Part shown: positions 36,838 to 62,330 of the stretch, piece after piece
Position numbering within the stretch: position 1 is the stretch's first letter
Layout: each line of letters opens with the position of its first letter
Source of the DNA: Allacma fusca
Taxonomy: Eukaryota > Arthropoda > Collembola > Symphypleona > Sminthuridae
Reading direction: 5' to 3'
Assembly (NCBI GenBank): GCA_947179485.1
Contig: OX359245.1
Coordinates: 61,305,067 to 61,369,066, forward strand
DNA: 64,000 nucleotides
Notes under the pieces: model-generated
Databases searched by the model: none
What the model was told of the DNA's origin: nothing
What the model saw: the letters and a program-made list of their open reading frames with translations, nothing else
Position numbers and translations under genes: made by a program

Positions 36838-36857
36838 GGATGAAGCAGGTGACAGAT

Positions 36858-38465: not shown

Positions 38466-38488
38466 AAATTATAACGTAAGTATGTACG

Positions 38489-38492
38489 TACC
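38489..38492 (-). promoter_or_regulatory. Candidate splice donor upstream of gag, element 1
   Basis: The transcribed strand reads G|GTACGTAC about 25 nt before the gag ATG. The same GGTACGTAC nonamer stands about 40 nt before gag in element 2. It could serve a spliced subgenomic mRNA for the post-pol frames, as in errantiviruses (inference). Confidence 0.4.
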
Positions 38493-38967
38493 GTGACGGT
38501 GGTTCATGGATATGAAACTTAACACTGTGTATTTAATATATAAAATTCCTCCTGGATGAGGTGGGAACGGTACTGAGCTCCGTGGCTGTCCGTTGAGTAT
38601 ACCCAAATCCTCAGGGCATCGGTCGGTGAAGTGCAGGTAAATCCGTCTGCCTTCCGTGGACAAGAAATAATAACCCCGTTTATCAATAAAAACTTACGAG
38701 GGGTTCTTCGACCGGTCACAGTCAATAAAGGTTGACTCCGCTGGGGTAGTCCCGAATGAGCTGTGCGTGTTGCAACGTCAAAAATGCAGGAATGTAACCT
38801 CTGCGTGGCCAAAACTGTAAATCTCAAAAATTCTCACGAAATATGACATATTATTCAAACTTGCCTGGTAATGAAATCAATTCTTAAAGTAAATCGATTG
38901 TTTCCCAAGGGGAGTGATAATTGAGAGTAATTCGGGAGCATTGCCAGGGCAATAATATTTTGGCAAT

Positions 38968-38985
38968 GTTTTACAAAGGCCACCA
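38968..38985 (-). promoter_or_regulatory. tRNA primer-binding site, element 1
   Basis: Directly after the 5' LTR the transcribed strand reads TGGTGGCC, complementary to a tRNA 3' end (..GGCCACCA). The second element has the same eight bases flush with its LTR. The tRNA species was not identified. Confidence 0.75.
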
Positions 38986-39502
38986 TGTAAGAGTAGGTTA
39001 TGGTTATACCATGAAATCCTAACTCATGGATTATTTACTTATGTAATTGTCAAGAATTTGTAAATAATTGGAAATCGTGCTGATGAAAGGAATGATTAAG
39101 AATAAACGATTGAGTGTGATTTTACATTAATCCGAAGACTAATTACTTTTATTTATAATCGAAATCAAAAGGAAAAGGAAATGAAGATTAACAACTAAAA
39201 ATAGGTGTTACTGGAATGACTCTCAGTTATTCACTGAAGAGTCTGGAAGAATCTTAAACTTAACAAGTGGCTACTTGAGCCTATTTTTACAATCTTAAGT
39301 CTAGACGTTACATCATAACGGATGTAACGGGACGTTGACACTCGTCGGCTTTAGCCGATGGGAAGTGCTTACATTGCACCTTTACAATAAGTGTTTAAGT
39401 AACTTTGAACTGACTTAACCTAGGGTTGTGTGTTTCACAACTTAATTAATTATTCATGTGAGACTTAACTAATTTATGTGATTTCTATATACATACCTAA
39501 CA
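38986..39502 (-). repeat. 5' LTR of Gypsy-type element 1
   Basis: 517 bp, with TG..CA ends as read on either strand. In the transcribed orientation it begins TGTTAGGTATG. It matches the other LTR base for base as far as I could check. Confidence 0.93.
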
Positions 39503-43162: not shown

Positions 43163-43656
43163 TGTTAGGTTAAGATGAATTAAGTATGTTTTTCCATACA
43201 ATTATTTAAGGATCATTTTAAAGTACAATTTAGCCTGCGAGCTAAATCATTAAAGTTTATTATTTGCTGACTGTATCCAGTCAACGGCCTTGGTAACTTC
43301 CGTTACCCATTTATCATGTATGTATTAATTTTAGAATTAGTAATCATTAGGACTAGTGTATCTAGTCCAGAAGATTTGTAAGAATGTATTTTTAGTCTTG
43401 TTCTGGTCTTCGGATCAATCCAATCAATCATTTAATCTTTCTTTAATTTCCCTTTCAGTTTCTTTTGATTTCATAAATAAATCAATTTTATTTTAATCTT
43501 CTCATTAATCACAGATCAGCTTCAATGGTTTAATTTATTCGTTGGCGTATCGTTTTGATTCTCACAATAATTAATAGTGTCTCATATTTATTCAATATTC
43601 ATGTATTTTGATATCTGCCTTTATCTCATATTGATACACGCCAACATAAACCAAAA
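43163..43656 (+). repeat. 5' LTR of Gypsy-type element 2
   Basis: 494 bp from TGTTAGGTTAAG to ACCAAAA. The end is set by the flush primer-binding site and by the ATAG target duplication at the outer end of the 3' copy. Confidence 0.88.
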
Positions 43657-43674
43657 TGGTGGCCCATGAAAACT
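43657..43674 (+). promoter_or_regulatory. tRNA primer-binding site, element 2
   Basis: TGGTGGCC immediately after the 5' LTR, the same eight bases as in element 1, then a similar downstream AAAAC. The tRNA primer was not identified. Confidence 0.75.
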
Positions 43675-44001
43675 TTATATCCCAATTCCAAACAAGACTC
43701 CCCGGGTGCGCGCTATTTTAAGAAATTGATTTGATAAAGCAGGTTTGATTAATTGTGCACATATCCCCCTTGGTTTTGAGTTTGAATATAGAAATCCAGT
43801 TTGAAGATTAAAGCAGCTGCCAGGAAGGCGCAATGAACTTAATATTGCTCACCTTCCTACTTTCGATGTGACCTGACTAGAGGCACAAGTGAAGACATTT
43901 CCCCATTTGTTACAAAGGTAATTATAAGTGTACTGGATAAAAATCCCCTACCTCAGGTTTTGCAACAGTCAACCCTGTGGTTCAGAGCGGATTACTGGAT
44001 T

Positions 44002-44010
44002 AAAGGTACG
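44002..44010 (+). promoter_or_regulatory. Candidate splice donor upstream of gag, element 2
   Basis: AAAG|GTACGTAC, about 40 nt before the gag ATG, shared with element 1. A pyrimidine-rich tract ending TTTCAG near 49407, just before the post-pol frames, is a possible acceptor. Confidence 0.4.
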
Positions 44011-44044
44011 TACAAAGATTAAATGCATTATTCCCCTATGACAT

Positions 44045-45664
44045 ATGTCAGATAAGAAGCCCAAAAAAGAGATACCCTCCACAGTACCCAAAACACACAG
44101 TAGACAGACTCGCTCAAATTCCCAACCTGAGCTAGATGCTCAGGCGTTAGACAGATTATTAAAGTTACGTGCAGATAAACGCAAACGAAAGCCCTCCGAT
44201 CCCACCTGTGAATCTACAGCTGAGAAGTTAAAGATAATTTTACCACCGATACCTCCCCCTCTAAGTAAACTTTCGACACCCACCCCATTTGTACTACATA
44301 GCGCCCTTGATTTTCATAGTCAGATTTTGAACGGTAAAACATTCCTAAAGACTCCCGAGCCCGATCTTTTAGGTTTTTGGGATTTTGTAGATAATATCCC
44401 GATTACACCAGGCCCTCCACCCTTCCCATTAATTCCTCCTAAGCCTTTAAAGCCTAGAAACTTTAACCCCCTTTCTTTTAATTTAAAAATCAGATTTGCC
44501 AGTAAAAATTTACGCAAGATCATGGCTACTACGGCTACAACCACCGTGGTTGTTAACACAGCTCCCATTCATTCTATTGTGCAATTTAAAAAGTTAAGTC
44601 AGTTTGACCCCACTTGTCATGATATCAATGATTTTGTCCTTGACATTGAACGAGTCGTCGCCCAATATTCTTGGGATTGGAAGACTCTTCAAGGTCATAT
44701 GCCCAATTTATTGGTTCGTGACCCCTATATTTGGTATCAAGCAGAGATCGCCAAACAACCCCCCACCATCACAGATATTGCGTCATTTTTCAGAGTTTTT
44801 AAGGACCGTTATGCGAAAGACCGCACGGTTTACCTTAATCAATTAAAAACTCGCTCCCAAAAAGAAGGCGAAAGTTGTGCAAAATTTTTATATGACATTG
44901 ATTATATTTGCACACGTTACAACCCCAGTATGTCCAATGAGGACAAAGTTGCATGGGGCATTGAGGGACTACTCCCTCAAATGAAAGCCCAGGCCGCTGG
45001 ATATAGTTACACCAGCATGGCTGCATTAGTCCGTTTTTGCGAACAAAAAGAATTCGCTGCCGTATCTGCCCCTGCTAATACGGCTGAAACCAAAATTCAA
45101 GCTCTTGAAGAAAAAATTGCGAAACTTGGCATTAGTGACGCTCCCAACGCTCAAGTAAGCTTTGCAAACAATCGTGGTAGAGGAGGTCGTGGCCGAGGCC
45201 GTGGCGCTCCTTCTCACTCTAATAATCAGGCTCAACAAGCCCACGGAAATTTTCAACCCTCTCGCGGGGGTGGAAACTTCCGTCCCAATAATAACTATAA
45301 TAATAATACTTCTGGAAACCAACCCCAAAATCGTTCCATCCAATGTTATAATTGTGGCCGTCAAGGTCACATGGCTCGAGAATGTCGATCGGGAAACGCT
45401 GCAAGGGGCTCTTACCATCAAGGTCAGGGCCCCCGGCAACAAAACTATTACCAGAATCCGAATCGATTTCAAAACAATCGACCCCCTCCCTTAATGCCTC
45501 AGAATTACAATCAGTCCAACAACCGCCGAGGCGGTTACTCCAATCATCCCCGCTCGAACGTCCAACGTCTCGAGATTTCCCTCACCCCTCCCCAACAGCA
45601 AGCCCAAGTTCAAACCCAACAACCACCTCAACAAGCCTATCCTTTGATAACCTTTCCTCAATAA
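44045..45664 (+). CDS. gag: Gag-like capsid/nucleocapsid polyprotein, element 2
   Basis: 539 aa, intact, beginning MSDKK as in element 1. The proline-rich N-terminal part contains a SRQTRSNS stretch comparable to SRVTRKNS in element 1. The conserved capsid region (about residues 180-340) includes QYSWDWKTLQGHMPNLL and RYAKDRTVYLNQL. It is followed by an RG-rich tract and one CCHC knuckle, CYNCGRQGHMAREC, near residue 433. The pol frame is -1 relative to gag and stays open into gag for about 300 nt here. Confidence 0.9.
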   Translation: MSDKKPKKEIPSTVPKTHSRQTRSNSQPELDAQALDRLLKLRADKRKRKPSDPTCESTAEKLKIILPPIPPPLSKLSTPTPFVLHSALDFHSQILNGKTFLKTPEPDLLGFWDFVDNIPITPGPPPFPLIPPKPLKPRNFNPLSFNLKIRFASKNLRKIMATTATTTVVVNTAPIHSIVQFKKLSQFDPTCHDINDFVLDIERVVAQYSWDWKTLQGHMPNLLVRDPYIWYQAEIAKQPPTITDIASFFRVFKDRYAKDRTVYLNQLKTRSQKEGESCAKFLYDIDYICTRYNPSMSNEDKVAWGIEGLLPQMKAQAAGYSYTSMAALVRFCEQKEFAAVSAPANTAETKIQALEEKIAKLGISDAPNAQVSFANNRGRGGRGRGRGAPSHSNNQAQQAHGNFQPSRGGGNFRPNNNYNNNTSGNQPQNRSIQCYNCGRQGHMARECRSGNAARGSYHQGQGPRQQNYYQNPNRFQNNRPPPLMPQNYNQSNNRRGGYSNHPRSNVQRLEISLTPPQQQAQVQTQQPPQQAYPLITFPQ

Positions 45665-45666
45665 AT

Positions 45667-46614
45667 GTGTCCGACCCATCTCATTGCCCTTATGTACTCT
45701 GCTCGTTTAATGATGTAATTATAGACGCTCTTATTGACACAGGAGCCTCTCAAAATTTAATTCATACATTAAGTGTCCCTCCTAATTCCATGCTCATTCC
45801 TTGCCCTCCCCGTTATATTTTAACAGCAGATAGGAATCATTTATGTACGCGCTTTACTGTTATGTTACGTTTTCATATTGATAATGTACCATATTCAGCA
45901 CAGGCTCAAGTTTTGGATATTCTCACACCCTCATTCATATTAGGTTGCACTTTCCTTTCCCAGTATAAACTTACCGTCGACGTTTATCATCACTCCCTCT
46001 TCAACTCCACACACTCTCATTATATACGTAGGCATGCATATACAGCCCCTTGTACTTCGCATTGTGGTTGTTCTGTACCTATAAAATCTCTTTTTACTCT
46101 CCAACTTCCTCCGCGTCGTCAATTCTATGTTCCAACTACACCCATTTTTACATCTCCATCACTTTGTTTTGTCGCTAACTCATCCATCTCCACACAGTAT
46201 AATATTTTTCTTCCAGCTCTCGTCAATATGCCGCCTCGTCATGTCCTTGTGTGTAACATGTCTAATAAAGTTCAGACCTTACCAGCAGGTACAACTTTAG
46301 GCACGTTAAATACATATGAGGCCGTTGCTCCATTAACTCTCCCTCCCGACATTCCTACAAATGTTTCTCCACTTACTCCAGCTCAACTTCAACACATTCA
46401 TATAAACTCTCAACTTACCCCTCCACAAAAATCTCAAATCATTACCCTTCTGAACAAATTTTCATACTTATTCGCATGGTCTTTACATGATTTAAAAATC
46501 TGCACTTTTCCCCCATGCGTATTCGTTTACATTCTTCCACCCCCGTTCAGGCTAAGCCTTATAGACTTAGTACAGCTGAACGTGACTATCTCAAAACTGA
46601 ACTTGACAAATTGA
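45667..46614 (+). pseudogene. pol: Pol, protease part, element 2 (frame broken)
   Basis: In the -1 frame to gag. Carries the aspartic protease motif DTG in IDALIDTGASQNL, then the linker region that aligns with element 1 (LDIL/LETLTPxxILGC, PPRxQFYVPTT). The frame is lost at 46510-46514, where a C run has five bases while the equivalent run in element 1 is longer. The remaining residues to 46614 are out-of-frame sequence. Either an inactivating single-base loss or a homopolymer base-calling error. Confidence 0.85.
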
Positions 46615-49334
46615 TTGACGCTGGTATTATTGTTCCCTGCGATAATTCCAACTATTCCACTCCCGTTTTTCTTGTCAAACAGAAGACAAAGTGGCGTTTA
46701 GTATGTGATTTCAAGAAATTAAATAAAATTACTGTTGATGAACTTTTCCCCCTCCCTCGTATTGATGACCTATTATTTCAATTACGTCATGCTGCTTATT
46801 TTTCCCCTTTGGATTTATTTAGTGGTTATTATCAAGCCGCTATTCACCCAGACGACCAACATTACACAGCAATCATTACAGAATTCGGTCTGTATATGTA
46901 TCTTCGTGTCTGTTTCGGTCTTAAAAATGCTCCCGCATATTTTCAACGCTTAGCTATGAAAACCTTGGGTAATCTTCGGTTTACCCATGCTGTTTCATAC
47001 ATTGATGATATCATTCCATATAGCAAAGATTTTCCTTCCCATTTAATTGCTCTCGATTTAGTTCTCACAGCCCTCTCTTTAGCTAATTTACGCCTTAATC
47101 CAGCCAAATGTAATTTTGCCCTGCAAGAACATGCCCTTTTTGGATATTTTCTTTCCCAACAAGGTCTTTCCACAGAATCTGCCAAAGTTGCTGCGATCAT
47201 GCAACAAAACCGGCCCTATAACATTGACTCCCTCCGAAAATTTTTAGGAACTATAGGTTACTATCGACGTTTTATTTCTGGATTTGCTCAAAAAGCTGCC
47301 CCCTTACAGCAATTATTAAAAAAGCATTCTCTTTATCATTGGTCCCCCGATTGTCAAAAATCTTTTGATGAATTGAAAAATGCTCTTTGTACCGCCCCTG
47401 TACTTCGTCATTATGATGAAACAAAGCCTTGTATCTTATATACGGATGCTAGCAATGCAGGGTTAGCAGGCATACTCCATCAGGTGTTTGAAGATGGAGA
47501 ACACCCCATTTTTTATGTATCCCGCTCTCTCACTCCAGCCGAAAAGAACTGGAGTATAACTGAAAAAGAATGCTTAGCTGTTGTTTTTGCTGTCAAAAAG
47601 TTTCGTGAATTTCTTTATTTACACCCTTTTAATATTGTCTCTGATCATCATGCATTATGTTATTTCAAATGCCAGAGGGATCCATCTGCCCGTCTCACTC
47701 GTATGAGTATAATTTTACAGGAGTATCGTTATGTTATTAAATATAAAAAAGGCTCCCTCCACCGCAACGTGGATGGCGTCTCCCGATGCCCCTACGCCCT
47801 TGCAACCTCCACAGATACGGATGCGGATTTACATATCCCTGGGCTAGTTGCACTTGAATCATCCCCCTCTGTCCCTCTAATTGACCCCACTAATCTTCTT
47901 GATGCCCAAAAACTTGACCCGACGATTTCTCGTATAATAATTAAAAAACGCTCCAAATTGTTACAAAATGATGATGGAATTTATTTTATCCAATTCAATC
48001 CCCGAGCTCCCAAATTACTTCTTGTTCCTAAGGCTTTAATTCCAACCCTTTTGCACAACGCACATAATCATCCCCTTTCTGGTCATTTAAATTTTAAACG
48101 AACTTTAGCCCGTATACGTCCTTACTATTGGTGGCGTGCGATGACAGCTGATACCTTTCGTCATTGTACCCAATGTGGTGATTGTCAAAGTCGCCAGCAT
48201 TTGACCAAACTCCGTATGGATAGCCTTAAACCCATTACAGTCAAGACTCCAGGCAGTACATATGCCATGGATTTACTTGGTCCGTTCCGTGAAACTATTC
48301 GTGGAAACATTTACATTTTTGTCCTTACAGATTTATTCACTAAATGGGTGCACTCAGCACTTTTACCGTGCCGAGAATCATCCCATATAGCCATGCAGCT
48401 CGAATCTTTTATTCTTGCATTCCCTGGAATGTCCACGCTCATTTCCGATGGCGCTGCGGAATTTAAGTCTTCAGCAGTTTCTTCCCTTCTCCAGCGTTTT
48501 AATATTACCCATAATGTAAGCATGCCACATCATCCCCGTTCTCATGGTTCAGTTGAGCGACTCAACCAAACCATTGCAATTATGCTTAGCAAATTTGTAT
48601 CTGATAATCAGCAAGATTGGGATATTTTTACTCCCTATGTCATTGCTGCTTATAATACATCAGCCCATTCGGTAACTAAAATTTCTCCCTTCGAAGCATT
48701 TTTTGGCCGAGCTCCTCCAGCTCCTCTTCTTAATTCTATTCCCAATAATCTTATGTCCTTCCAGCAATTATCTCCCAGTAAAGTGCAAGCCTTGCATCAT
48801 CGTATTTCACAACTCATCAAAAGTGCTCAAGCTCAGGCCAAAGCACGTTTGGATTCCATGTATAATGCCCTCGACTTTAAAATCGGTTCTCATGTGAGAT
48901 ACTTCCTTCCCCAACGCAAAATAGGCTTATCTGACAAACTTCTTTGTCGATGGATAGGTCCCTATACTATAACTTATATAGACAAATTCAATAATGCTGA
49001 CCTTGTATTAACATTTCCTTCCCATAAACTCCGTCCGGTCATAAAATGTCACCTTTCTCAACTTAAGCTTGTAAATATAGACTTGGGTGATGGTATTGTC
49101 CACCCTGAGTACATATATACGACTGATGATCAAGAAGAATTTCAAGCTTGGCAGGATTATATGCATTCTTCACCCTACAATTCCCTCTCTCAGTCGTCCG
49201 ATAGTCCGTCAACCAAAACTTCTTCTTCCAGTGCTTCTCCTAAAGTTGTTAAACCCCGTTCAAAAGTTCACCCTGTGTCTCATCCCCTTCCACGTCGTTC
49301 TGCTCGCATACAAGCGCAAGTACAACTTACTTAA
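46515..49334 (+). pseudogene. pol: Pol, RT-RNase H-integrase part, element 2
   Basis: 939 codons open, in -1 frame to the protease part. RT motifs VCDFKKLN, FSPLDLFSGYYQ, YIDD. RNase H LYTDAS and VSDHHAL. Integrase HNHPLSGH and CGDC zinc region, then D (AMDLLG), D (SDGAAEF), E (VERLNQ) and the GPY/F-type WIGPYTITYI. All catalytic residues are kept, so apart from the C-run break the polyprotein looks functional. The ATG at 46515 is an internal methionine, not a likely natural start. Confidence 0.9.
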
Positions 49335-49478
49335 CTACACAAAATTTTTTTCTCTCATCCGTCACTCATTGTGTCTTCGGAGTTTTTCTTTGCAATTTGT
49401 TTCAGTTATTTCCCAGTGCTGTTCCAATTTCCTACATAAACCCCCGTTTTTGTGCTCTCTTTCTTTGAAAATTGCCTA

Positions 49479-51290
49479 ATGCCTTCGGATCATGTCCAGC
49501 TTTCTTCCACCAACAAATCCACTCCTCCCGTCTTACCCGACGATACCGGGAGTCCAAAAGTTCTCCTCGACTCTAGCAATTCGGACCTCAATTCTACTGG
49601 GCGAAAATCCATGGATAGAGCTCATTCCAGTTCAACTTCCGGGACTTCCCCAGACACCGATTTATTGCCCCGTGGCCGAAGCCACAGTTCGGATCTTCCC
49701 CTTTCAGTACACCAGCCTACAGGGTCAGATGATGACTCACTCGGATCCTCTTATTCCCATTTACCATCGGACCTTTCGTCATGTGGCGGCGGGGATACTC
49801 CTCCCCTCCACAATTCCCCCGTTAATGGAACAACTACGAGCCACATATTGCTCAGCAAGCTACTCTTATGCAGTACAATCCCGGAATCTACTCCAGGAAA
49901 TGCGGGATCCTCCTCCTCTTCATCTGAGTGTGGTTCCCGTAATCCAGGTGGACGCGCAGATTGTCATCTCGACATTCCTGAGGGAGGATCTGATGTCAAT
50001 GGACCTCCTGACCCGGCAGAGGAAACAGTCAAAGAAGCTATTCGGCAAGCCCAAGCATACGATTCTAGCGATCAAATCTCCACCCCAAACGTCCGAGGAA
50101 ATAGCAGTCGGACTCACCCCGTTCCACAATGCCCCCAATATACATCCATTGGCAAGTTTTCAACTCACCCTAACAAACACCGCGGAGCATTCAGACCCCA
50201 ACAAAAGGTGCGAAATGTTCCTCAATCAACCCCAGAACGAATTCCCAGGTATCGTGATTACCCAATCTACGCCGACTGTACCCCCGTGCCTCAACACGTC
50301 GTCAACGCTCAGAACTCCTCCCGCAAGCCCAAGGGTCGTCCAAAATTCCAGACACAAGGACGACCGTTCATTACAAACCCCAACTTTCCTGTCGCCCGAA
50401 ACTCACCTTCATTCAGACCCCCTCCTGCAAATAACACCGTCACTACTACCATCCACACATCTCTACCCCCAGCTACTACTAAACGAGGCCGGTCAGTTCA
50501 TCGGTTCTCGTTTACATACACAACATTCCTCATCTGTTTGTTCTTCTTCCTCTGCGCCACCGGATTTGAGGCTGCTCCAATCCCCGGAGGTTGGGGAAGC
50601 CTTCCCAACCTCGCTCAACTCCACACACTTCCGGACACCAAATTGTATGATAAGCATGATAATTTTAATTTTGATAAAAATTCCAAGAATCATGTAGCTA
50701 AGAAAAATTCTGGTGTGAAAATGTTAGCTGCTGGAACTGGACTTATGGTTGCTGCTCCTGTAGTGACCAAAGTTTTAGACTATATTCCCTCCCCATCCAA
50801 CTCCTTCCCGGAATCTCCTTCCTCTACTAATTCAAATTTGACCATTCGTCATGAGTATGTCATGGCAACAGTCCCTCCACCCCTAATTGATACGACACCT
50901 TCCTATTTTGCCAACATTGATGACGGAATTTCCTCTGAAATTCCCTCAACAATGTTACCCATAGTTCTCAAGCAGGTACAACTACCTGTCCCAACTTCAC
51001 CTCCATCCCCTCCCCCTTTGGAGTTCGAAGTTAATTCTGGCCCTTGGACATTTCTTTTCCGTATTTTTTCAGTCCTCGGTTTTCTTATGACATTTTTAAT
51101 TGGACTAGGCCTCTTTTGCTACGGCGGATGCCGAATTTTCCTTGCCCGCCGTATCTCAAGACGGCGAGATCATGCTCTCCCAGCATTCTTTACCAGCGAT
51201 CCGTCCACGGGAACGCAGGTTATGCTTCCGTTAAACCCCTCTTGTCAGGTTACTACCCTCTCCAAAGCGGTGGATCATCTTTCCCAATAA
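49479..51290 (+). CDS. Post-pol frame B, envelope-like membrane protein, element 2
   Basis: 603 aa from the ATG at 49479 (C at -3, weak context). The first about 340 residues are Ser/Pro/Asp-rich and overlap frame A in the other phase. Near residues 343-361 an internal hydrophobic segment (FLICLFFFLCATGF) precedes a possible cleavage site EAA and then GGWGSLPNLAQL, matching element 1. The Ala/Gly-rich stretch MLAAGTGLMVAAPVVTKVLD and following PSPSNSFPE also match. One NLT glycosylation site is present. A C-terminal membrane span (about 525-550) is followed by RRISRRRD. Role inferred as envelope-like or other membrane protein of the particle. No known family recognised. Confidence 0.75.
   Translation: MPSDHVQLSSTNKSTPPVLPDDTGSPKVLLDSSNSDLNSTGRKSMDRAHSSSTSGTSPDTDLLPRGRSHSSDLPLSVHQPTGSDDDSLGSSYSHLPSDLSSCGGGDTPPLHNSPVNGTTTSHILLSKLLLCSTIPESTPGNAGSSSSSSECGSRNPGGRADCHLDIPEGGSDVNGPPDPAEETVKEAIRQAQAYDSSDQISTPNVRGNSSRTHPVPQCPQYTSIGKFSTHPNKHRGAFRPQQKVRNVPQSTPERIPRYRDYPIYADCTPVPQHVVNAQNSSRKPKGRPKFQTQGRPFITNPNFPVARNSPSFRPPPANNTVTTTIHTSLPPATTKRGRSVHRFSFTYTTFLICLFFFLCATGFEAAPIPGGWGSLPNLAQLHTLPDTKLYDKHDNFNFDKNSKNHVAKKNSGVKMLAAGTGLMVAAPVVTKVLDYIPSPSNSFPESPSSTNSNLTIRHEYVMATVPPPLIDTTPSYFANIDDGISSEIPSTMLPIVLKQVQLPVPTSPPSPPPLEFEVNSGPWTFLFRIFSVLGFLMTFLIGLGLFCYGGCRIFLARRISRRRDHALPAFFTSDPSTGTQVMLPLNPSCQVTTLSKAVDHLSQ
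49492..50697 (+). CDS. Post-pol frame A (conserved, unrecognised), element 2
   Basis: 401 aa starting 13 nt after the frame B ATG, with A at -3. Conserved with element 1 in the first about 110 residues (GENPWIELI, LPGLPQT, YCPV, RIFPFQY, RTFRHVAAGILLP) and at LYPQLLLNEAGQFI. Beyond that point this copy runs about 65 residues further than element 1, opposite the membrane-coding part of frame B, so the tail is probably not constrained. No membrane span. Function unknown. Confidence 0.75.
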   Translation: MSSFLPPTNPLLPSYPTIPGVQKFSSTLAIRTSILLGENPWIELIPVQLPGLPQTPIYCPVAEATVRIFPFQYTSLQGQMMTHSDPLIPIYHRTFRHVAAGILLPSTIPPLMEQLRATYCSASYSYAVQSRNLLQEMRDPPPLHLSVVPVIQVDAQIVISTFLREDLMSMDLLTRQRKQSKKLFGKPKHTILAIKSPPQTSEEIAVGLTPFHNAPNIHPLASFQLTLTNTAEHSDPNKRCEMFLNQPQNEFPGIVITQSTPTVPPCLNTSSTLRTPPASPRVVQNSRHKDDRSLQTPTFLSPETHLHSDPLLQITPSLLPSTHLYPQLLLNEAGQFIGSRLHTQHSSSVCSSSSAPPDLRLLQSPEVGEAFPTSLNSTHFRTPNCMISMIILILIKIPRIM

Positions 51291-51530
51291 AATAAATATT
51301 TTTTTGGTGTTTTTATTTTTATTTTTGTTTGTTTCTCTTTCAGTTAATTCTAGTTTGTTAGTCACAATTGTGCATTTTGCTAACACTTGTTACTTTAACC
51401 TTTTATTTTACTAACTCATTTTTAGTTTGCTACATTTCACTAAATTGTTTTCACTATTTACATATTATATTTTCTTTTGTTATGTACTTCGTCAAAATTT
51501 GAGGCCAAATTTTCTGTTTACGGCCCGGGA

Positions 51531-52024
51531 TGTTAGGTTAAGATGAATTAAGTATGTTTTTCCATACAATTATTTAAGGATCATTTTAAAGTACAATTTA
51601 GCCTGCGAGCTAAATCATTAAAGTTTATTATTTGCTGACTGTATCCAGTCAACGGCCTTGGTAACTTCCGTTACCCATTTATCATGTATGTATTAATTTT
51701 AGAATTAGTAATCATTAGGACTAGTGTATCTAGTCCAGAAGATTTGTAAGAATGTATTTTTAGTCTTGTTCTGGTCTTCGGATCAATCCAATCAATCATA
51801 TAATCTTTCTTTAATTTCCCTTTCAGTTTCTTTTGATTTCATAAATAAATCAATTTTATTTTAATCTTCTCATTAATCACAGATCAGCTTCAATGGTTTA
51901 ATTTATTCGTTGGCGTATCGTTTTGATTCTCACAATAATTAATAGTGTCTCATATTTATTCAATATTCATGTATTTTGATATCTGCCTTTATCTCATATT
52001 GATACACGCCAACATAAACCAAAA
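51531..52024 (+). repeat. 3' LTR of Gypsy-type element 2
   Basis: 494 bp, one visible difference from the 5' copy. It is preceded by CGGCCCGGGA rather than a long purine run. Element 1 also has CGGGA directly before its 3' LTR. An AATAAA-like poly(A) signal lies inside. Confidence 0.88.
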
Positions 52025-54394: not shown

Positions 54395-54665
54395 ATGTCC
54401 ACTGGACATTTCCCTATGCTTAAGGCATAGGGCCACCCTTCACTTTTTCCAGTGGACATTTCCACATGTTTAAAGCATATAGGTGCCCTTCACTTTTTCC
54501 AGTGGACATTTCCACATGTTTAAAGCATATAGGTGCCCTTCACTTTTTCCTCGTGGACATTTCCATGTGTTTTACTCATTGGGGTGCCCTTCATATTTTC
54601 AGTGGACATTTTCCCCATTGTTAAAGCATAGGTCCGCCCTTCACTTTTCATAATGGACATTTGCC
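54395..54665. repeat. 50-bp tandem repeat, five to six units
   Basis: The word TGGACATT recurs at 54403, 54453, 54503, 54554, 54603 and 54654. Units of about 50 bp read GTGGACATTTCCACATGTTT followed by AAAGCATATAGGTGCCCTTC. Central units are almost identical and outer ones diverge. It lies between the reductase exon and the Polinton-like genes and could belong to the latter's terminal region. Confidence 0.85.
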
Positions 54666-55117: not shown

Positions 55118-55810
55118 ATGGATCCAGTTGTAAGTGTAACCCAGGAGTTCGATTTTCTCAACATTTCCAATGAGAAAAGGGAAATCATTGCTAAAAAATC
55201 AGAAAAATTCTGGGCTGCAAAAGTGGCGATGTATAACTTCACCCTCAGGATAGCAAAAATTATGGTGAATCACAGCTGCGGGGTCGATTGGCGTCTTTCA
55301 TTGAAACCTAGTATGGAAATCCTCTGTAGCTGTGAGGAACTAGCCTATCTTAAGATAGAATGGGATCGGATTTGCTTGAAATTCGAAGATGCACTTCCGG
55401 ATACGAAGCAAGGAATGGATTTTAAAGAATACACGGGCACCTCGAAAATACACCCTGGTATAGACGCCGACACCGGTATGGAAGTCAATGTAAGTAACCC
55501 GGGATACCTGGATATAGTTCCGAGGCTATCATCCATTACGATGAGTCCTATGAAGAAAACATTATCACCTTATCTCACTCCCGCGGCGTTGGCTGAAGGT
55601 TATTACATCATTAAATCAGATGAAATAACATGTGTCTACTGTGATGGAAAGCCCGGATGGTTTTCCGAAGATCGCCAGATTAAATATAGAAAAGGATGTT
55701 TCAAGAAATGTCCACTGGAATTAGCTTATTTCTTTGGCGATGATGACAGACGACCGAAATGGAAAAGGAGGACTGAGTCATTGGAGAAGGAATTTTCTGC
55801 AATACGTTAA
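55118..55810 (+). CDS. BIR-like zinc-finger protein of the Polinton-like element
   Basis: 230 aa. The N-terminal about 150 residues are not recognised. The C-terminal part reads AEGYYIIKSDEITCVYCDGKPGW..ED...KYRKGCFKKCPLE. It follows the BIR pattern G-Y-Y-(4)-D-x-x-x-C-x2-C-(..)-W-(..)-D-(..)-H-(..)-C of IAP proteins (cysteines near residues 172, 175 and 198), except that the zinc-binding histidine position holds tyrosine. A second cysteine (GCF) nearby might substitute. If it is a BIR domain, a role in blocking host cell death is conceivable, but the altered ligand makes this tentative. Upstream AGs suggest a spliced 5' leader. Confidence 0.5.
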   Translation: MDPVVSVTQEFDFLNISNEKREIIAKKSEKFWAAKVAMYNFTLRIAKIMVNHSCGVDWRLSLKPSMEILCSCEELAYLKIEWDRICLKFEDALPDTKQGMDFKEYTGTSKIHPGIDADTGMEVNVSNPGYLDIVPRLSSITMSPMKKTLSPYLTPAALAEGYYIIKSDEITCVYCDGKPGWFSEDRQIKYRKGCFKKCPLELAYFFGDDDRRPKWKRRTESLEKEFSAIR

Positions 55811-55979
55811 AACAAACCGGGAGACATAGAGGCTATATTTCGTCTTCAGTACTTGGATAGAGTTATTGAAAGTAGAACTCAGAGATTTGGTTGAATAAAT
55901 TTGGACCTCAAATTTGTCTTTATCTGATATAATCTAGCATGGATTGTAACATTTATTCATTCATATTTTGGAATTCATC

Positions 55980-56615
55980 ATGGCAGGTTTCACAATCACT
56001 CTTCTCAGCGATGCATCTTATAATTTTTATCCCGAAAAAACGATAACTAATTTTAGAAATAAGTTAGCAACGCGAATTGACTTGGATGCACGGGACTTTG
56101 AAGTCGCTTTAACCACATGTACATACACATCAACAAATGTTTTCGTTTGTGAGGGTGAAGAAATTGGAATAGCCAGTATTTCATCAAAATCGGCTGAGTT
56201 CTTGTCTGTTAATTTACTAATTCTTAGTAATGACCGTTGGCTTGAAAGCAATTCATTAAAATGCAGGATGTTCGCACCACACAATTTTTCTGATGAAATA
56301 GATTTTTGTCAATACATTTCAAAAGTTACAAGGGATGTTTATGAAATTAACCAGAGGTCATATGTAGAGATTACAAAAGAAGCTGGTAATACAAAACTCA
56401 CATATTCATTTGAATTGTCAGAGCGACTCAAGAAAGTATTTGGAATACATGAAGGCTTTGCGGAAACACAAAAGGTGCAAAAATTAGTAATATCAAATAC
56501 AAGAGCAGAAGCTATAGTAGGATTTGATACTATTAACACAACTTATGAGCATATTTGGGGGGAAAACGTCGACGGAAATAACGGAGATTGTTCACCTAAA
56601 AAAAATCATGAGTGA
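55980..56615 (+). CDS. Penton-like minor capsid protein, N-terminal type
   Basis: 211 aa from the ATG at 55980 (an in-frame ATG lies 12 nt upstream). The start, FTITLLSDASYNFYPEKTITNF..KL...IDLD...FEVALTTCTY, matches the usual beginning of the arthropod Polinton penton-like protein (S...YP.NT...F...L...I.L.G..EV.L). A later segment, YVEITKEAG..KLTYSFELSERLKKVFGI, fits its middle. The expected C-terminal LHFR-type end is missing and instead appears in the next frame. The coding end overlaps the next ATG by eight bases. Either two separate genes or one split gene. Confidence 0.55.
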   Translation: MAGFTITLLSDASYNFYPEKTITNFRNKLATRIDLDARDFEVALTTCTYTSTNVFVCEGEEIGIASISSKSAEFLSVNLLILSNDRWLESNSLKCRMFAPHNFSDEIDFCQYISKVTRDVYEINQRSYVEITKEAGNTKLTYSFELSERLKKVFGIHEGFAETQKVQKLVISNTRAEAIVGFDTINTTYEHIWGENVDGNNGDCSPKKNHE

Positions 56616-57207
56616 TACAAAGATGCACCTAAAGAATTACTTTGACAAGGGTGAAATAATTGCAACATCACAAGATAATCCGAATATTTTCATATCCGCG
56701 GAGAGAGACATCAAATCATTTGAAGATTTCATGGAAATTCTCAGTTTAGAAATGGATATTGAGTGGTTTATCGTGAAAGGAAAAATGTATGTTATTTCTC
56801 ATGAAAATTCAAAGTTTAATGATTTTGATCTCTCACGATCTGCGAAGCATTATTTGGGATTTTTGACTGCGCAAGCCCCAGCACCATCTACAATTGTCTT
56901 CGAGAAGCAACGAGCTCGTCACAAGCTGTATAAGGGATTTGGGAATGATCTTCTATTCGTGTACTGTGATATTGTCGAAAATCAATACGTAGGTGACTCT
57001 TATGCACCTTTGATGCGATGTATGCCTCAAACTTTCAATAATGGTAAAGCCTATGAACACGAATTTTACAATCCAACATATCTACCATTGAAATCCAACT
57101 CATTTGACAATGTTCATGTGTATATAATGAATGAATCTGGGAAACCACCGCCATTCGAATTTGGGGACTTCAAGTGTACACTACACTTCCGTGAGCGAAG
57201 ATACTAA
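56608..57207 (+). CDS. Penton-like minor capsid protein, C-terminal type
   Basis: 199 aa, +1 frame relative to the preceding gene; start at the ATG within ATGAGTGA. The second half, LLFVYCDIVENQYVGDSYAPLMRC...YLPL..NSFDNVHVYIMNESG.PPPFEFGDFKCTLHFRER, matches the characteristic end of Polinton penton-like proteins (VY.DI...Q.VGD...PLLR ... LHFRR). An eight-A run (56598-56605) sits right at the junction, so the division may reflect an indel there. However, this frame has its own middle module (FVKGKMYVIS..), which would make a paralogue possible as well. Confidence 0.6.
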   Translation: MSDTKMHLKNYFDKGEIIATSQDNPNIFISAERDIKSFEDFMEILSLEMDIEWFIVKGKMYVISHENSKFNDFDLSRSAKHYLGFLTAQAPAPSTIVFEKQRARHKLYKGFGNDLLFVYCDIVENQYVGDSYAPLMRCMPQTFNNGKAYEHEFYNPTYLPLKSNSFDNVHVYIMNESGKPPPFEFGDFKCTLHFRERRY

Positions 57208-57255
57208 AAAACAACATATACTATTAGAATGACTAAAACGTTCCAGTGTTCTGAT

Positions 57256-57714
57256 ATGGAGAGCAAGTTTTACAGAATTCATTACCCTCAATATGGGCAA
57301 GGTATTCAATATGGTGGTGGTGGAGGACTTTTATTTTATAGGGGGTCTTAAGTTCGTCAAAAGGGTGCTGGACTGGGCTCCTTCTTTGGGTCAATTGCTT
57401 GAAGGCTTATACCATTCGCTTCTAAATACCTTCTCCCCCATGCTAAAACAGCCTTAAAAAATGTTGCACTTGATGTATTGGAGGGTGGTCGCCCCCTTAG
57501 CGAGTCCCTTAAGGATCGTGGTCTTGATGCTCTTAAAGCAGTTGGTCAGGATGTAATGTCTCAGTCTGGTTCTGGATTTGGAAGAAAACGTAAGGCGGAA
57601 GATCAAGGTAGAAAACTTTACCCATATAAGAAAATCAAACGTGCACCTAAAATTGGACGAGGGACAAAAAGGCTACTAAGAAACGAGGAAAGAAAAACGG
57701 TCGTGGAATACTGA
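57256..57714 (+). pseudogene. Adenovirus pX/pVI-like small basic protein, broken
   Basis: One frame from the ATG at 57256 reads MESKFYRIHYPQYGQG, a glycine run, then RQKGAGLGSFFGSIA and ALKNVALDVLEGGRPLSESLKDRG...KRKAED. This resembles the small Gly-rich/basic Polinton protein with Y.G...Q.G.GLG.FLG and a KRKAE-type tail. It is interrupted by an in-frame TAA (57349-57351) and TGA (57400-57402). Near an A run at about 57669 the strongly basic C-terminal sequence continues in another frame, up to a stop near 57788. Three lesions make it a pseudogene unless the assembly is wrong. It lies directly before the hexon gene, its usual neighbour. Confidence 0.55.
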
Positions 57715-57850
57715 AGCTAAATATTTCCAAAACGACTAAGAAGAGTGCTCCAAAAAGAAAAAAGGAAAATTCTAGAAACATTATTTCATAATTGCCGGGC
57801 ATCATTTTTTGAGGAGTGAACTCGACATTTTTAAACGTGAAGGTTACGAT

Positions 57851-59110
57851 ATGTCAATTCAAACAACTCAAACTTGTGATGTATTCCCAAATTGTCCCTT
57901 ATCTGAGACTGCTGTACCATTAACATTCAATGTTGATAGTACAGAGGCCCATTATATTGACCTTAGCAAGACTCGTCTGTATTTACGCATGGGAATTTTA
58001 GATTCTGATGGTAATGCCAATGCTGAAAACATAGTTGTTGCTCCGGTCAACAATATTTTACACTCTGTATTTTCTCAATGTTCAGTGTATTTAAATGAAA
58101 CATTGATATCCCCTACAAATACTTATTATCCATATCGATCAATAATTGAGCGGATGTTACTATTTTCAAAGGAGTACAATGAGACTCAATCACAATGTGC
58201 GGGTTATTTCAAAGATAATAACCCTCCAAACGTTGATGCTAATGTGACATCGTCCTATTATCAACGATGGACACTGAGTCGGGGTAGTAAAGTTTTCGAG
58301 GTAATAGGAAGACCCCATGCAGACATTTTCTGCCAACCGGACTTCCTACCACCGGGAGTAGACTTGAAAGTAGTATTTCATCGTTCAACTAAAGACTTTG
58401 CTGTTCATACTGATTTGGCACTTGTTAACCAGCCTCATTACAAATTACAAATAGTGGAGGCTAAGCTACAAATTCTCAGGCATAAAGTCATTCCAGCTGC
58501 TGCTCTGGATCATATTCGATTATGGGAGGCTGGAGATGTGGCGAATCTATATTTAAACAAGGTTAATATCAAGAGCTTTTCATTACCGATTGGGACATTG
58601 ACACGGATGGAGGAGGGCGTATTCAAGGGCGGGCAACTTCCTGATCGATTGGTACTTGCAATTATACCAAGAACAAACTTAAATGGAACTTGCACAAGTA
58701 ATCCTTTTGTATTTAGCGACTTTGGACTTACCAACATTAATGTTTCTGTTAATGGAGACAATTGCGAGTCTTATCCGCTAGATGTCGACTTTCAAGAAAA
58801 CCGTCTACGTGTACAAGAAGCCCTAAGTAATGTCTATAGAGCTATTGGGATTGACAATAAGGACGCTAGCATCGACTACAGTCTTTCAGACTTTTTGAAT
58901 AACAAGACTCTCTTTGCCTATGAAATCTCACCAATTGTCGATGCCAGATCCGTACCTCGTTTTGGAAATTTGAAAATCGAACTTCGCTTTCGAGGTGCCA
59001 CAGCCATACCATTGACTGTACTCTGTTACACAGAATCCCAAGCTATCTTGAACATTGACAAGAATAAATCTGTATTTTATACTGATTACACTCAGCAGAA
59101 TCAGCAATGA
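57851..59110 (+). CDS. Hexon-like major capsid protein
   Basis: 419 aa from ATG 57851; the open frame extends upstream to about 57790 without an ATG. The upstream residues LRSELDIF correspond to the conserved (K/R)SELD.F start of this family, so the original start codon seems lost. Family features: TRLYLRMGI, VNNILHSVFSQCSVYLN, YPYRSIIERML, PHADIFCQPDFLPPGVDLKVVF and the PDRLVLAII region, as in the widespread F54H12.2-like proteins regarded as the Polinton/adintovirus double-jelly-roll capsid protein. Length is typical. The stop overlaps the protease start in ATGA. Confidence 0.75.
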   Translation: MSIQTTQTCDVFPNCPLSETAVPLTFNVDSTEAHYIDLSKTRLYLRMGILDSDGNANAENIVVAPVNNILHSVFSQCSVYLNETLISPTNTYYPYRSIIERMLLFSKEYNETQSQCAGYFKDNNPPNVDANVTSSYYQRWTLSRGSKVFEVIGRPHADIFCQPDFLPPGVDLKVVFHRSTKDFAVHTDLALVNQPHYKLQIVEAKLQILRHKVIPAAALDHIRLWEAGDVANLYLNKVNIKSFSLPIGTLTRMEEGVFKGGQLPDRLVLAIIPRTNLNGTCTSNPFVFSDFGLTNINVSVNGDNCESYPLDVDFQENRLRVQEALSNVYRAIGIDNKDASIDYSLSDFLNNKTLFAYEISPIVDARSVPRFGNLKIELRFRGATAIPLTVLCYTESQAILNIDKNKSVFYTDYTQQNQQ

Positions 59111-59637
59111 ATACAACTCAAGTTTATAATTATTTACATGTTATATGCAAGCCTAGAAGGGCAATGTTTGATGTAGTATCATGTGATGAGTTGAAATATG
59201 TAAAATTGAATAAGTTTCCATTATGCCTTGTTGTAAATTCAGATCCCAGCACAAAGCCCGGGGATCATTGGGTGGCTATTTATATAGATAATAAGTCTAG
59301 TTTCTTAGAATTTTATGATTCATATGGTTTTGGTATAGATTACCATGCTGTTGAATTCAATGCGTTTGCAAAGAAATGTAAACTTAGAATAAGAGAGAAT
59401 ACAAAGCAGTTGCAAACTTGGGGTTCAACGGTTTGTGGAAATTATGCATTATATTTTTTGTATAAGAGACTCAGACGTTGCTCTCCCATGAACTTGTACT
59501 GCTCATTTTCAAATGACTTAGTTCGTAATGACAAATATGTTTTAATGTTTATTAACTCCAAAAAATATTCAATTAAAACTCGAATTGTTGTAATAAGAAT
59601 GTTCATCAATCAGTTACAGAGTTTGCAAAATAAATAA
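59107..59637 (+). CDS. Adenain-like cysteine protease
   Basis: 176 aa. Maturation protease of the C5/Ulp1-like fold. Catalytic residues by pattern: His54 in GDHWVAIYID, Asp71 in EFYDSYG, and Cys110 in STVCGNYALYFL with an oxyanion-type Gln103 six residues before it, the spacing of adenovirus protease. Complete length for the family, no breaks. It starts inside the stop codon of the hexon-like gene (ATGA). In Polintons this enzyme would process capsid precursors, and Gly-Gly-containing sequences in the neighbouring small proteins are possible sites (inference). Confidence 0.9.
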   Translation: MNTTQVYNYLHVICKPRRAMFDVVSCDELKYVKLNKFPLCLVVNSDPSTKPGDHWVAIYIDNKSSFLEFYDSYGFGIDYHAVEFNAFAKKCKLRIRENTKQLQTWGSTVCGNYALYFLYKRLRRCSPMNLYCSFSNDLVRNDKYVLMFINSKKYSIKTRIVVIRMFINQLQSLQNK

Positions 59638-59775
59638 ATAAAACTAATACTTATTCCATCGTATAACAATTTTCTTTTTACATCCACTTCCATGTTGTCC
59701 ATTTTTCCCACCACACCCAATGCATAATGTCTTAGAAATCTTTTTACGTTTTGATTTCGGTCTTACTGAATCATT

Positions 59776-60762
59776 TTATTCATCATCACCATAGCAGGTT
59801 TTACGCTTGGATGGATTCATTATTTTTTCAGTTTTAATCTTCTTTTCAGTAAGTATATACCGTTTTAATTTGATTAGCATGGTTGGTTTAACAGGTGGGG
59901 GTAATGCCCTTGGATTATCACCGACATCATTATAAATATTGTGAGTATCCGGCAATGGTTCTGAAAACTTTGTAAATAATCGCCTCTTGGGTAAAGTTGA
60001 TTCATCAAAAGTATAATCTTCATAAAATTTTCGTTTGCTCGCGGGAATTCTTCTTGTATCGATATTGTTTTGAATGAATGGAGCTGGTTCTGAAAACATT
60101 GAAAATAGTCGTCTCTTAGGTATAGGGGATTCATCGAAAGTGTAATCTTCATAAAATTTCCGCTTACTCGGTGGAATTCTTGTTGTATCGATATTGTTTC
60201 GAATCAATGATGGTGGATCCGAAAACTTTGTAAATAATCGCCTTTTGGGGATAGATGATTCATCAAAAGTATAATCTTCATAAAATTTCCTTTTGGTGGG
60301 AGGAATTAATTTATTTGAAATATTTATGCTGTCTGGCCAATGATCCAAAACCTTTGGAACTATTTGTCGATTGGGTATTTCTTCAAAATCAAAATCACAA
60401 TCATCTTCATGATCATCAAAATCGTAATCATCGTAAATTGTTCGTTTGGGCGGTCTTCTAGTTGCATGGGTTTGAATGATTGGTTGGCGGGCAGTTCGAT
60501 TATTTTCTTTATTTAAACTATACTGCTGGGAATTTTGAGGCTTGGACTTGTCATGTTTCATTTTTACGAGAAGTGGTTTGTTATCTTCATACTGTTTCTT
60601 TTGTCTCAGGGATCTAGCATGTTCACCATATAAAGCTTGTTTCACATCATCACGGAATTTTGTAGAGTCCAATATATTTAAAGAAGAAGATCCATGAGAA
60701 TTAGCCTCAGACATCATTAGATTATAATGTGCTTCTGGTACTAGTTTCATGCGTCGCGCCAT
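59776..60762 (-). CDS. Repeat protein with KRRLF (cyclin-docking-like) motifs
   Basis: 328 aa. The N-terminus MARRMKLVPE resembles a motif that opens a conserved Polinton gene of unknown function. After a lysine-rich region and an acidic stretch (DYDFDDHEDDCDFDFEE) come three 43-residue repeats (129-bp DNA period, about 59960-60310). Each is of the form KRKFYEDYTFDES..PKRRLF..FS, preceded by a degenerate fourth (KRTIYDDYDF). PKRRLF fits the RxL cyclin-binding consensus and also resembles a nuclear localisation signal. The tail is basic. Its ATG follows the preceding gene's stop by a single base. Function unknown; a host cell-cycle or nuclear role is an inference. Confidence 0.7.
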   Translation of the reverse strand: MARRMKLVPEAHYNLMMSEANSHGSSSLNILDSTKFRDDVKQALYGEHARSLRQKKQYEDNKPLLVKMKHDKSKPQNSQQYSLNKENNRTARQPIIQTHATRRPPKRTIYDDYDFDDHEDDCDFDFEEIPNRQIVPKVLDHWPDSINISNKLIPPTKRKFYEDYTFDESSIPKRRLFTKFSDPPSLIRNNIDTTRIPPSKRKFYEDYTFDESPIPKRRLFSMFSEPAPFIQNNIDTRRIPASKRKFYEDYTFDESTLPKRRLFTKFSEPLPDTHNIYNDVGDNPRALPPPVKPTMLIKLKRYILTEKKIKTEKIMNPSKRKTCYGDDE

Positions 60763-60763
60763 C

Positions 60764-61081
60764 TTACGGGAGGAACTGAGAGATTAGGGATGATGCCAAT
60801 GTTGCAAGGATCGGGATAAAGAACCCACCGCCTTTTTGTAAAACTTTACGTTTATTTTTAAAGGATGATGATTTTAATGAGAGCGTGTGAAGATGCTTTT
60901 TGTAGGGCCGCAGCTTTTCAAATGTGCCACGTGAGACTGGAACATTACCTAAAAGGAAATTCTTGGTGCATTCTGACAAAGCTTTTAGTTCTTCGTTGGT
61001 GGCCTTATTGAGGACACGTTTTACACATTTCCTGGATTTGCATTTATGAAAAAAGACTTTATTATCAATTAATCGCTTCAT
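60764..61081 (-). CDS. Small conserved Polinton protein with GG-hydrophobic tail
   Basis: 105 aa. Pattern ECTKNFLLGNVPVSRGTFEKLRPYKKHLHTL...KRKVLQKGGGFFIPILATLASSLIS matches a recurring Polinton small protein (EC..N.L.GN.PLS...K..L..YK..LR.L...K..L..GGFL..LL). The GGG followed by a hydrophobic amphipathic segment resembles adenain-cleaved minor capsid or membrane-active peptides, but that role is inferred. First gene of a minus-strand pair with 59776-60762; the two are separated by one base. Confidence 0.7.
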   Translation of the reverse strand: MKRLIDNKVFFHKCKSRKCVKRVLNKATNEELKALSECTKNFLLGNVPVSRGTFEKLRPYKKHLHTLSLKSSSFKNKRKVLQKGGGFFIPILATLASSLISQFLP

Positions 61082-61182
61082 TTTGAAAGGTAGGTGTTGG
61101 ACTCATGAATGCAACTTTGTCAATGATGAATATAAGTTAGTGTATTGGCATTTATGATTTATTTGATTACTCGCTCACTGTC

Positions 61183-62115
61183 ATGGCTGAGGCTAAAATT
61201 AAACGTCTGTATTTGAATCCCAAATTCAGAGAGAGTTTTTCAGGACTTAATACTTTTATGAAACACTACAAGGGTGGAGAATGTAGATCCACAATTGGAA
61301 ACGTTCTTCAGTCTATTCTTACATATGCTGAAAATAAACCAGCTATACAGAGGTTTAAGAGACGGATTGTGTATGTACATGGAATCGATGAACAGTGGGT
61401 AATAGACTTGATTGAAATCTCACGATATTCAAAACACAATAATAACTACAGATATATGCTTAGTATTATTGATGTCCTTAGTAAATATGCATTTGTAAAG
61501 CCTTTAAAGTCAAAAAAAAGCGCAGATGTACTGAAAGTGTTTCAAAACGTTTTAAAGTCCTCTGGTAGAATTCCTCAACGAATTCAATGTGACAAAGGAA
61601 CTGAATTTAAAATGGATTTCAAAGAGTTTTGTGTGGAAAAAGGAATTGGAATTTTCCATGTTCAATCAGAGCTTCAGGCATGTATAGTCGAACGATTTAA
61701 CAGAACTATTATGGAAAAAATAAGTAGATATGTCCAACATAAGGGTAGTTACAAGTTTATACATGTTTTACCTAAGCTTGTTCAAAATTACAATAATACA
61801 GTACATTCAAGTACTAAGTTTGCCCCAAGCTCGGTAAATTCCAAGAACGAGATGGAAGTATGGTATAACTTATTTGGAGAAAGGAAACTTCACATGTATA
61901 ATAATCCAAAATTTAACATTGGAGACCGTATATTAATTTCTATTGATAAAAATACATTTGAGAAAGGGTATGCCAAACGTTATCACCCTGAAGTATATAC
62001 TATCAATAGAATCGGTAATTCCAATCCCAGAATGTTTTATTTAACTGATCCAGAGGATAATGAACCCATGGACGGAGGGTTTTATGCGCAGGAACTTTCT
62101 AAAGTAAACTATTGA
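61183..62115 (+). CDS. Polinton-type (retroviral-like) integrase
   Basis: 310 aa, intact. RNase H-fold core with D75 (WVIDLIEI), D137 (IQCDKGTEF) and E170 (CIVERFNRT); D-to-E spacing is 33, slightly shorter than the usual 35. The region YRYMLSIIDVLSKYAFVKPLKSK and the C-terminal FNIGDRILIS..FEKGY...VYTINRI..GGFYAQEL follow known Polinton integrases. It would insert the linear element into host DNA. No zinc-binding HHCC domain is evident. It is oriented away from the minus-strand gene pair. Confidence 0.92.
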   Translation: MAEAKIKRLYLNPKFRESFSGLNTFMKHYKGGECRSTIGNVLQSILTYAENKPAIQRFKRRIVYVHGIDEQWVIDLIEISRYSKHNNNYRYMLSIIDVLSKYAFVKPLKSKKSADVLKVFQNVLKSSGRIPQRIQCDKGTEFKMDFKEFCVEKGIGIFHVQSELQACIVERFNRTIMEKISRYVQHKGSYKFIHVLPKLVQNYNNTVHSSTKFAPSSVNSKNEMEVWYNLFGERKLHMYNNPKFNIGDRILISIDKNTFEKGYAKRYHPEVYTINRIGNSNPRMFYLTDPEDNEPMDGGFYAQELSKVNY

Positions 62116-62144
62116 CAATATCATCACCAGGACCACCGGTCTAC

Positions 62145-62152
62145 TATATAAG
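62145..62152 (+). promoter_or_regulatory. TATA box for the spliced gene at 62331
   Basis: TATATAAG lies 30 nt after the integrase stop and about 80 nt before a GT donor (62229), consistent with a promoter for a short 5' leader exon. Confidence 0.5.
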
Positions 62153-62330
62153 GTGAGAACATTTCTAAAAAATTACATTCATCCTCAACAGCTTGTCCTA
62201 GACTTTCCAAACTCTTGGATAAATGTTGGTAAGTTTAATTTTGATTATCATGGATGGTCCTGCTTGTGTTTTGAAAACTTTCCAATTTTTATTTTCAATG
62301 TTAAAATTTTCCAGAAAATTCAACAAGACC

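Follow-up and report, generated by a model that had tools for sequence, protein, structure and literature searches.

From the comparison of two diverged LTR retrotransposons in the window (the whole 64,000-nucleotide stretch of Allacma fusca DNA that was analysed), we conclude that a dual-coding gene pair under selection is real in both elements: a long frame, A, is located downstream of pol, and a second frame, B, is nested entirely within it. The two are probably overprinted genes of the retroviral type that are leaky-scanned, and a nested pair after pol, translated by leaky scanning from a spliced mRNA, is the explanation that we favor with good, though not complete, confidence.

Both LTR elements of the window are classed here as Ty3/Gypsy type (Metaviridae) and are called young, retrovirus-like elements. 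By comparison within the window, each is flanked by a pair of LTRs, and by a domain scan each shows the order reverse transcriptase, RNase H and integrase in pol. Element 2 lies on the forward strand, between a 5' LTR (43163–43656, 494 bp) and a 3' LTR (51531–52024) that are 99.8% identical. It consists of gag (44045–45664), in which the domain scan, run for gag on this element, recognized a zinc knuckle (zf-CCHC); a protease-side frame (45382–46614) and a pol frame (46515–49334), interrupted in the window copy, with RVT_1, RNase H, H2C2 and rve located in 46515–49331; and frames A (49479–51290) and B (49492–50697). Element 1 lies on the reverse strand, and its 5' LTR (38986–39502, 517 bp) is identical to its 3' LTR (30344–30860). 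Its gag (36858–38465) has a zinc-knuckle motif recognized by eye in the translation, and its protease and pol share a single frame (33046–36837) that stops inside the first 8 nt of A; the putative protease gave a match to RVP in the Pfam scan that fell short of the cut-off (E = 0.0018, 19 bits against 20.7). Here A occupies 31128–33053, and B occupies 32081–33040. The coordinates of all four frames were given correctly in an earlier sequence-only reading; the −1 relation that it gave to them is wrong, B beginning 13 nt after A and thus being in +1 relative to A. The coding strands of both elements (43163–52024 and 30344–39502) are C-rich, with a GC skew of 0.17–0.29 in size over the coding parts, and most flanks differ in this respect.

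A search of the 393-Mb assembly with element 2 gave at least 79 matching pieces (40 of the 48 candidates were scored), and 40 places, the window included, were aligned. After the partial copy L040, which is without the ATGs, had been dropped, 39 copies were counted, and the within-family tests described below use these element-2 copies. Frame B has exactly 376 codons in 23 of the 39, 377 in one and 401 in the window copy; frame A runs to its normal end in 21, and this end is combined with a 376-codon B in 20. When substitutions alone are considered, the overlap contains no stop in A in 35 copies and none in B in 30. Stops in B of related copies had been named beforehand as evidence against the pair, and they do occur by substitution in nine of the 39, but each of these stop columns is private to one copy. 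The A-frame stops are five in number and fall in four columns, one of which is shared by two copies that, by the branching order of the tree, are no sister pair, so that a common lineage of A-stopped copies is unsupported. This shared stop, in L029 and L033 at the column of window position 49896, represents either parallel change or exchange between copies.

The window copy of element 2 is itself damaged. At 50619/50620 it has an in-frame deletion, particular to this copy, of a block that is present in all 39 other places (93 nt in 37 of them, and 92 and 94 nt in one each). Because the missing block contains the normal stop of B, the B of the window is longer by 25 codons, and its end differs from that of the family. 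The pol frame of this copy is also broken between protease and reverse transcriptase, where it is intact in six of the eight other copies examined. The block of 92–94 nt was considered as an intron and rejected: it is in frame in most copies, encodes A residues that are alike in element 1, and holds the stop of B.

The start codons of A and B are preserved as a pair. In both elements they are 13 nt apart (49479–49494 in element 2), the A ATG being preceded at −3 by C and the B ATG by an adenine, just as the sequence-only reading had it. All 39 copies of element 2 preserve the two ATGs together with these −3 bases, and the 16-nt block is identical in 37. The stretch with the paired starts (49473–49491) shows 0.37 changes per site, whereas the sequence 5' of it shows 2.38. 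At the +4 base, G is found at neither the A nor the B ATG, which counts against leaky scanning. The arrangement described earlier as a leaky-scanning pair is present and kept in every copy counted, and the mechanism itself is probable. In the model that we propose, splicing would join a donor located immediately 5' of the gag ATG to an acceptor immediately 5' of that of A, and so yield a subgenomic mRNA; a part of the ribosomes would initiate at the first AUG, that of A, in its weak context (C at −3), and the remaining ribosomes would scan 13 nt further and initiate at B, which has the adenine at −3. The N-terminal half of A would then pass through the coding region of B and be selected mainly to remain open.

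Candidate splice sites are found where this model would place them in element 2. The sequence GGTACGTAC is common to both elements just 5' of the gag ATG, and the candidate donor of element 2 (44005–44012, with GT at 44006, ahead of the gag ATG), AAGGTACGTAC, is kept in all 17 copies with a leader match (20 were fetched, three of them without a match). In element 1, the candidate donor (38485–38492 on the reverse strand, with GT at 38491–38490) reads CACGGTACGTAC. The candidate acceptors of element 2 lie in a pyrimidine-rich stretch (49392–49416), with CAG ending at 49405 and at 49416; the first is CAG or TAG in 35 of the 39 copies, the second is CAG in 33, and from the first acceptor site to the start of A all 39 copies are free of any other ATG. 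However, element 1 lacks a clear acceptor candidate, which counts against the splicing model. The leaders also contain ATGs in the interval from the 5' LTR to the donor, three in element 2 and four in element 1 (11 and 13 when counted from the start of the LTR), and since these precede the donor, plain scanning would meet them first, which is against the leaky-scanning model.

Because of these leader ATGs, the absence of a clear acceptor candidate in element 1, and the position of the element 1 pol stop within the first 8 nt of A (ATGTCTGA), a real rival is that the same two genes are started on the full-length RNA, either through reinitiation following termination of pol or through internal entry, and that no spliced mRNA is involved. 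We consider this fairly unlikely: in element 2, pol ends 144 nt 5' of the A ATG, and diverged copies still have the donor- and acceptor-like sites. A spliced, leaky-scanned mRNA is preferred here, and both of these readings assume the same pair of genes.

The protein that is conserved across the overlap is that of frame B. Between the two elements, B shows 43% identity (73 of 171 amino acids, with no gaps), whereas a significant match in A begins only at about residue 313 in element 2 and 281 in element 1, close to the hydrophobic stretch that A encodes where B is about to end. The sequence-only reading, in which A was conserved and B poorly conserved in the overlap, had this relation reversed. 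The same is seen within the family, where the minimum numbers of changes on the tree (counted over the 39 element-2 copies, damaged ones included) in the overlap 49495–50619 were 166 at first positions of B (second positions of A), 182 at second positions of B (third of A) and 543 at third positions of B (first of A), with 375 sites in each class. Changes are thus concentrated at B third positions, as expected where the frame-B protein is what selection preserves, and B is shown by this to be under purifying selection. In the part that belongs to A only (50620–51287), the changes are 173, 83 and 407 at first, second and third positions of A, a frame-A pattern. The final 119 nt of the overlap (50501–50619), which encode a hydrophobic segment of A, show 39, 9 and 35 changes at the same three positions, and both frames are constrained there.

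Although the amino acid sequence of A is not conserved there, frame A is open over the entire overlap in both elements, and far beyond what chance would give. Synonymous codons of B were shuffled in 2000 rounds, so that the B protein and its codon usage were preserved. In element 2 (to 50619), a mean of 12.4 A-frame stops was expected, with a minimum of 4, and in element 1 a mean of 10.9, with a minimum of 3; the real sequences have none. When the overlap was divided into halves, the proportions of shuffles without any A stop were 0.0095 and 0.0005 in element 2, and 0 of 2000 and 0.009 in element 1. The absence of stops is explained by the fact that T is never the last base of a B codon when AA, AG or GA follows: in element 2, it was found there in none of 60 cases but in 79 of 315 other contexts, and the corresponding figures for element 1 were none of 44 and 76 of 274. 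As controls, the forward frames of gag (its first 435 codons in element 2), of pol and of the A-only part were shuffled in both elements, and no significant depletion of stops was recognized (P of 0.058 or more). One reverse-strand frame was mildly short of stops in several genes, including pol (P = 0.004–0.06), and the shuffle null is thus imperfect, but this effect is far smaller. As 11 of 38 silent sites of B are alike in the two elements, these sites look saturated, and the openness of A has thus been maintained through the divergence of the elements.

In a second kind of test, the changes among the 39 copies show that new stops in A are avoided. Alternatives that are silent in B and would stop A were observed in only one of 44 cases, against 275 of 772 for those that would not stop it (P = 1.8 × 10-7), and the avoidance is recognized in both the 5' half (P = 0.0063) and the 3' half (P = 2.9 × 10-5) of the overlap; each single-base alternative was counted once in this test, although those that share a site are not independent of each other. 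Three controls were clean: B-silent changes showed no avoidance of stops in the third frame (P = 0.95), and A-silent changes in the A-only region showed none in the other two frames (P = 0.73 and 1). An earlier, column-based version gave one of 44 A-stopping columns against 58 of 181 (P = 5.8 × 10-6, with 0.022 for the 5' half, and 11 of 15 against 36 of 74 in its control), and a first C/T test, with few usable columns, found polymorphism in none of 30 stop contexts in the overlap against eight of 48 (P = 0.02), with halves that were not significant. The reciprocal test, on A-silent changes that would stop B, gave one of 24 against 71 of 798 (P = 0.36), with no significant avoidance, since few A-silent changes survive the constraint of B. 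Thus, frame A is kept open by selection over the entire overlap, and apparently this openness serves the passage of ribosomes to the membrane protein. Overprinting under selection, as proposed in the sequence-only reading, is in this respect supported by both the shuffling and the changes among copies.

These results bear directly on a different division of the region, in which the genes are B and the C-terminal part of A alone, the latter having its own start or acceptor, and the upstream part of A is open by chance or through C-rich composition. Such a division would agree with the strong C over G skew of both elements, with the unconserved A sequence of the overlap, and with an ATG of element 1 that is located just 5' of the hydrophobic segment, directly after the B stop. 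However, the shuffles preserve composition and codons and still yield the 12.4 and 10.9 stops, the forward frames of gag and pol are undepleted, new A stops are avoided among the copies with three clean controls, and element 2 has no A-frame ATG from codon 45 to the hydrophobic segment. Chance or composition as the reason for the open frame is rejected on these grounds, and the division as a whole is very improbable. Frameshifting is common in retroelements and would likewise need A to be open downstream, but a shift of frame by ribosomes shortly after the start of B, with a B-A fusion as its product, is about equally improbable, because A-stop avoidance is already present in the N-terminal half of B, in element 1 as well as in element 2, and because the A ATG with its −3 C (39 of 39 copies) and the 16-nt block (37 of 39), which a frameshift would not need, are preserved.

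The N-terminal half of A looks free in its sequence. Given the B codons, the amino acids of A in the overlap, examined in the gapless N-terminal part of B, are alike at 30 of 170 positions against a shuffled mean of 29.6 (P = 0.50). Excess synonymous constraint in the overlap, which had been proposed as a check on the pair, is modest: compared with 2.15 changes per four-fold site in the A-only part, B shows 1.84 in the 5' half (P = 0.054) and 1.56 in the 3' half (P = 0.0025), and the 22 four-fold sites at the end of pol are lower still, at 1.36. As the amino acids of A are unconserved beyond the demands of B and the silent constraint is modest, this half is probably a free and disordered stretch, selected mainly for openness. 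It has a high content of S, P, T, G, N and Q, which make up 50% of it in element 1 and 54% in copy L003.

The product of A, 603–641 amino acids long across the elements, is probably a membrane protein whose conserved C-terminal part of about 290–315 amino acids is Env-like. In element 2, an S/P/T-rich N-terminal part over B is followed by a hydrophobic segment, a loop, a transmembrane segment and a short tail, and the C-terminal part in general is composed of a leader-like hydrophobic segment, a loop, a transmembrane helix and a short tail. Three hydrophobic segments are found in the same order, beginning at residues 324, 410 and 564 of the element 1 protein and at 350, 446 and 560 of that of copy L003, and in both elements a basic stretch follows the last of them. 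No Cys exists between the first and last hydrophobic segments in either element, and no RXXR was seen by eye in the aligned C-terminal part ahead of the last membrane segment. A search of Pfam with A at E ≤ 0.1 gave no family in either element, with no homology to Env-F, and the C-terminal part (residues 325–641 of element 1) gave no homologue in a large protein set. The AlphaFold model of this part is poor (mean pLDDT 45), the last membrane helix being its sole confident piece.

The product of B is a conserved, probably non-membrane protein of about 320–376 amino acids, for which an accessory role may be supposed. Its hydrophobic stretches are weaker than those of A (top mean hydropathy 1.45 and 1.70). 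No match to B was found in Pfam for either element, nor a homologue in the large protein set, nor a match among the PDB sequences (best E 0.55), and viral contigs searched with element 1 pol and with B gave nothing useful. The AlphaFold model of B is also poor (mean pLDDT 36), and neither model is good enough to search by fold.

Viruses offer well-known examples of long overprinted gene pairs; to our knowledge, the overlap of A and B would be unusually long for an LTR retrotransposon, and the leader that it provides would be extra-long for an Env-like protein. In HTLV-1, tax and rex, which are regulatory proteins of the Retroviridae, are read in overlapping frames from nearby AUGs on one spliced mRNA, whereas A and B are a membrane-type protein and an orphan protein in a Ty3/Gypsy element. 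The vpu and env genes of HIV-1 overlap briefly, whereas here one gene is fully nested over about 1 kb and the upstream AUG is that of the membrane protein. By the description in passages of PMC2657110, vpu-env has a spliced bicistronic mRNA with a weak first AUG and scanning on to the second gene, and it resembles A/B in the spliced mRNA of our model, in the weak first AUG and in one product that is an envelope or envelope-like protein.

Other LTR elements share single features with elements 1 and 2. The endogenous retroviruses of insects (errantiviruses) are also Ty3/Gypsy elements with an extra gene, and passages of PMC12992720 describe env mRNA that is spliced, in some subclades, from an exon upstream of gag. 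However, their Env-F has a furin site, a fusion peptide and conserved cysteines (same passages), whereas A is free of Cys from the first of its hydrophobic segments to the last, has no Pfam match, and is overlapped by another gene. Elements of the MDG1 group, as treated in parts of PMC11952523, carry two accessory ORFs, sORF1 and sORF2, of which one is transmembrane with a basic stretch after the membrane segment, as in A, and in some Lepidoptera sORF2 is located downstream of pol. But sORF2 has about 70 amino acids, lies upstream of gag in Drosophila, and is described there with no splicing evidence, whereas A exceeds 600 amino acids and overlaps B; with 603–641 amino acids, A is also outside the range of the FAST-like/sORF2 cell-cell fusogens (63–107 amino acids in the same parts of PMC11952523). 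In bdelloid rotifers, LTR retrotransposons have captured an ORF3 beside gag and pol, sometimes transmembrane and without clear relatives, and the ORF3s are said to come from spliced messages (passages of PMC5408684), so that the extra ORF is a common feature with elements 1 and 2; dual coding is not mentioned in those passages, and the word "overlap" is absent from the main text of that paper.

In the literature searched, which was mostly that outside subscription journals and partly in the form of passages, no overprinted pair like A/B was found in Ty3/Gypsy elements. We give about even chances to the broader view that a Ty3/Gypsy lineage has evolved a retrovirus-like bicistronic env mRNA, with B wholly inside the Env-like gene and the N-terminal half of A as a passage frame selected for its openness and not for its sequence. 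The two signals of selection are separable here, one frame being held for its protein and the other mainly for openness, and the approximately 40 copies in one genome represent a natural experiment on the evolution of overlapping frames. Two orphan proteins, one of them of membrane type, also bear on how retrotransposons may become infectious.

Some other features were recognized in the window. A short upstream ORF (44023–44055), whose 3' end overlaps the start of element 2 gag, has its ATG in the 17 copies with a leader match. A Maverick/Polinton-like element (55118–62816) adjoins element 2; its ORFs include an adenovirus-endoprotease-like domain (59107–59634) and an integrase core (61183–62115), and the region 55118–55810 gave a weak BIR match, under its cut-off. 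Five units of about 50 bp are arranged head-to-tail at 54398–54651, and an exon of an astacin-type peptidase is located on the reverse strand at 17301–17792.
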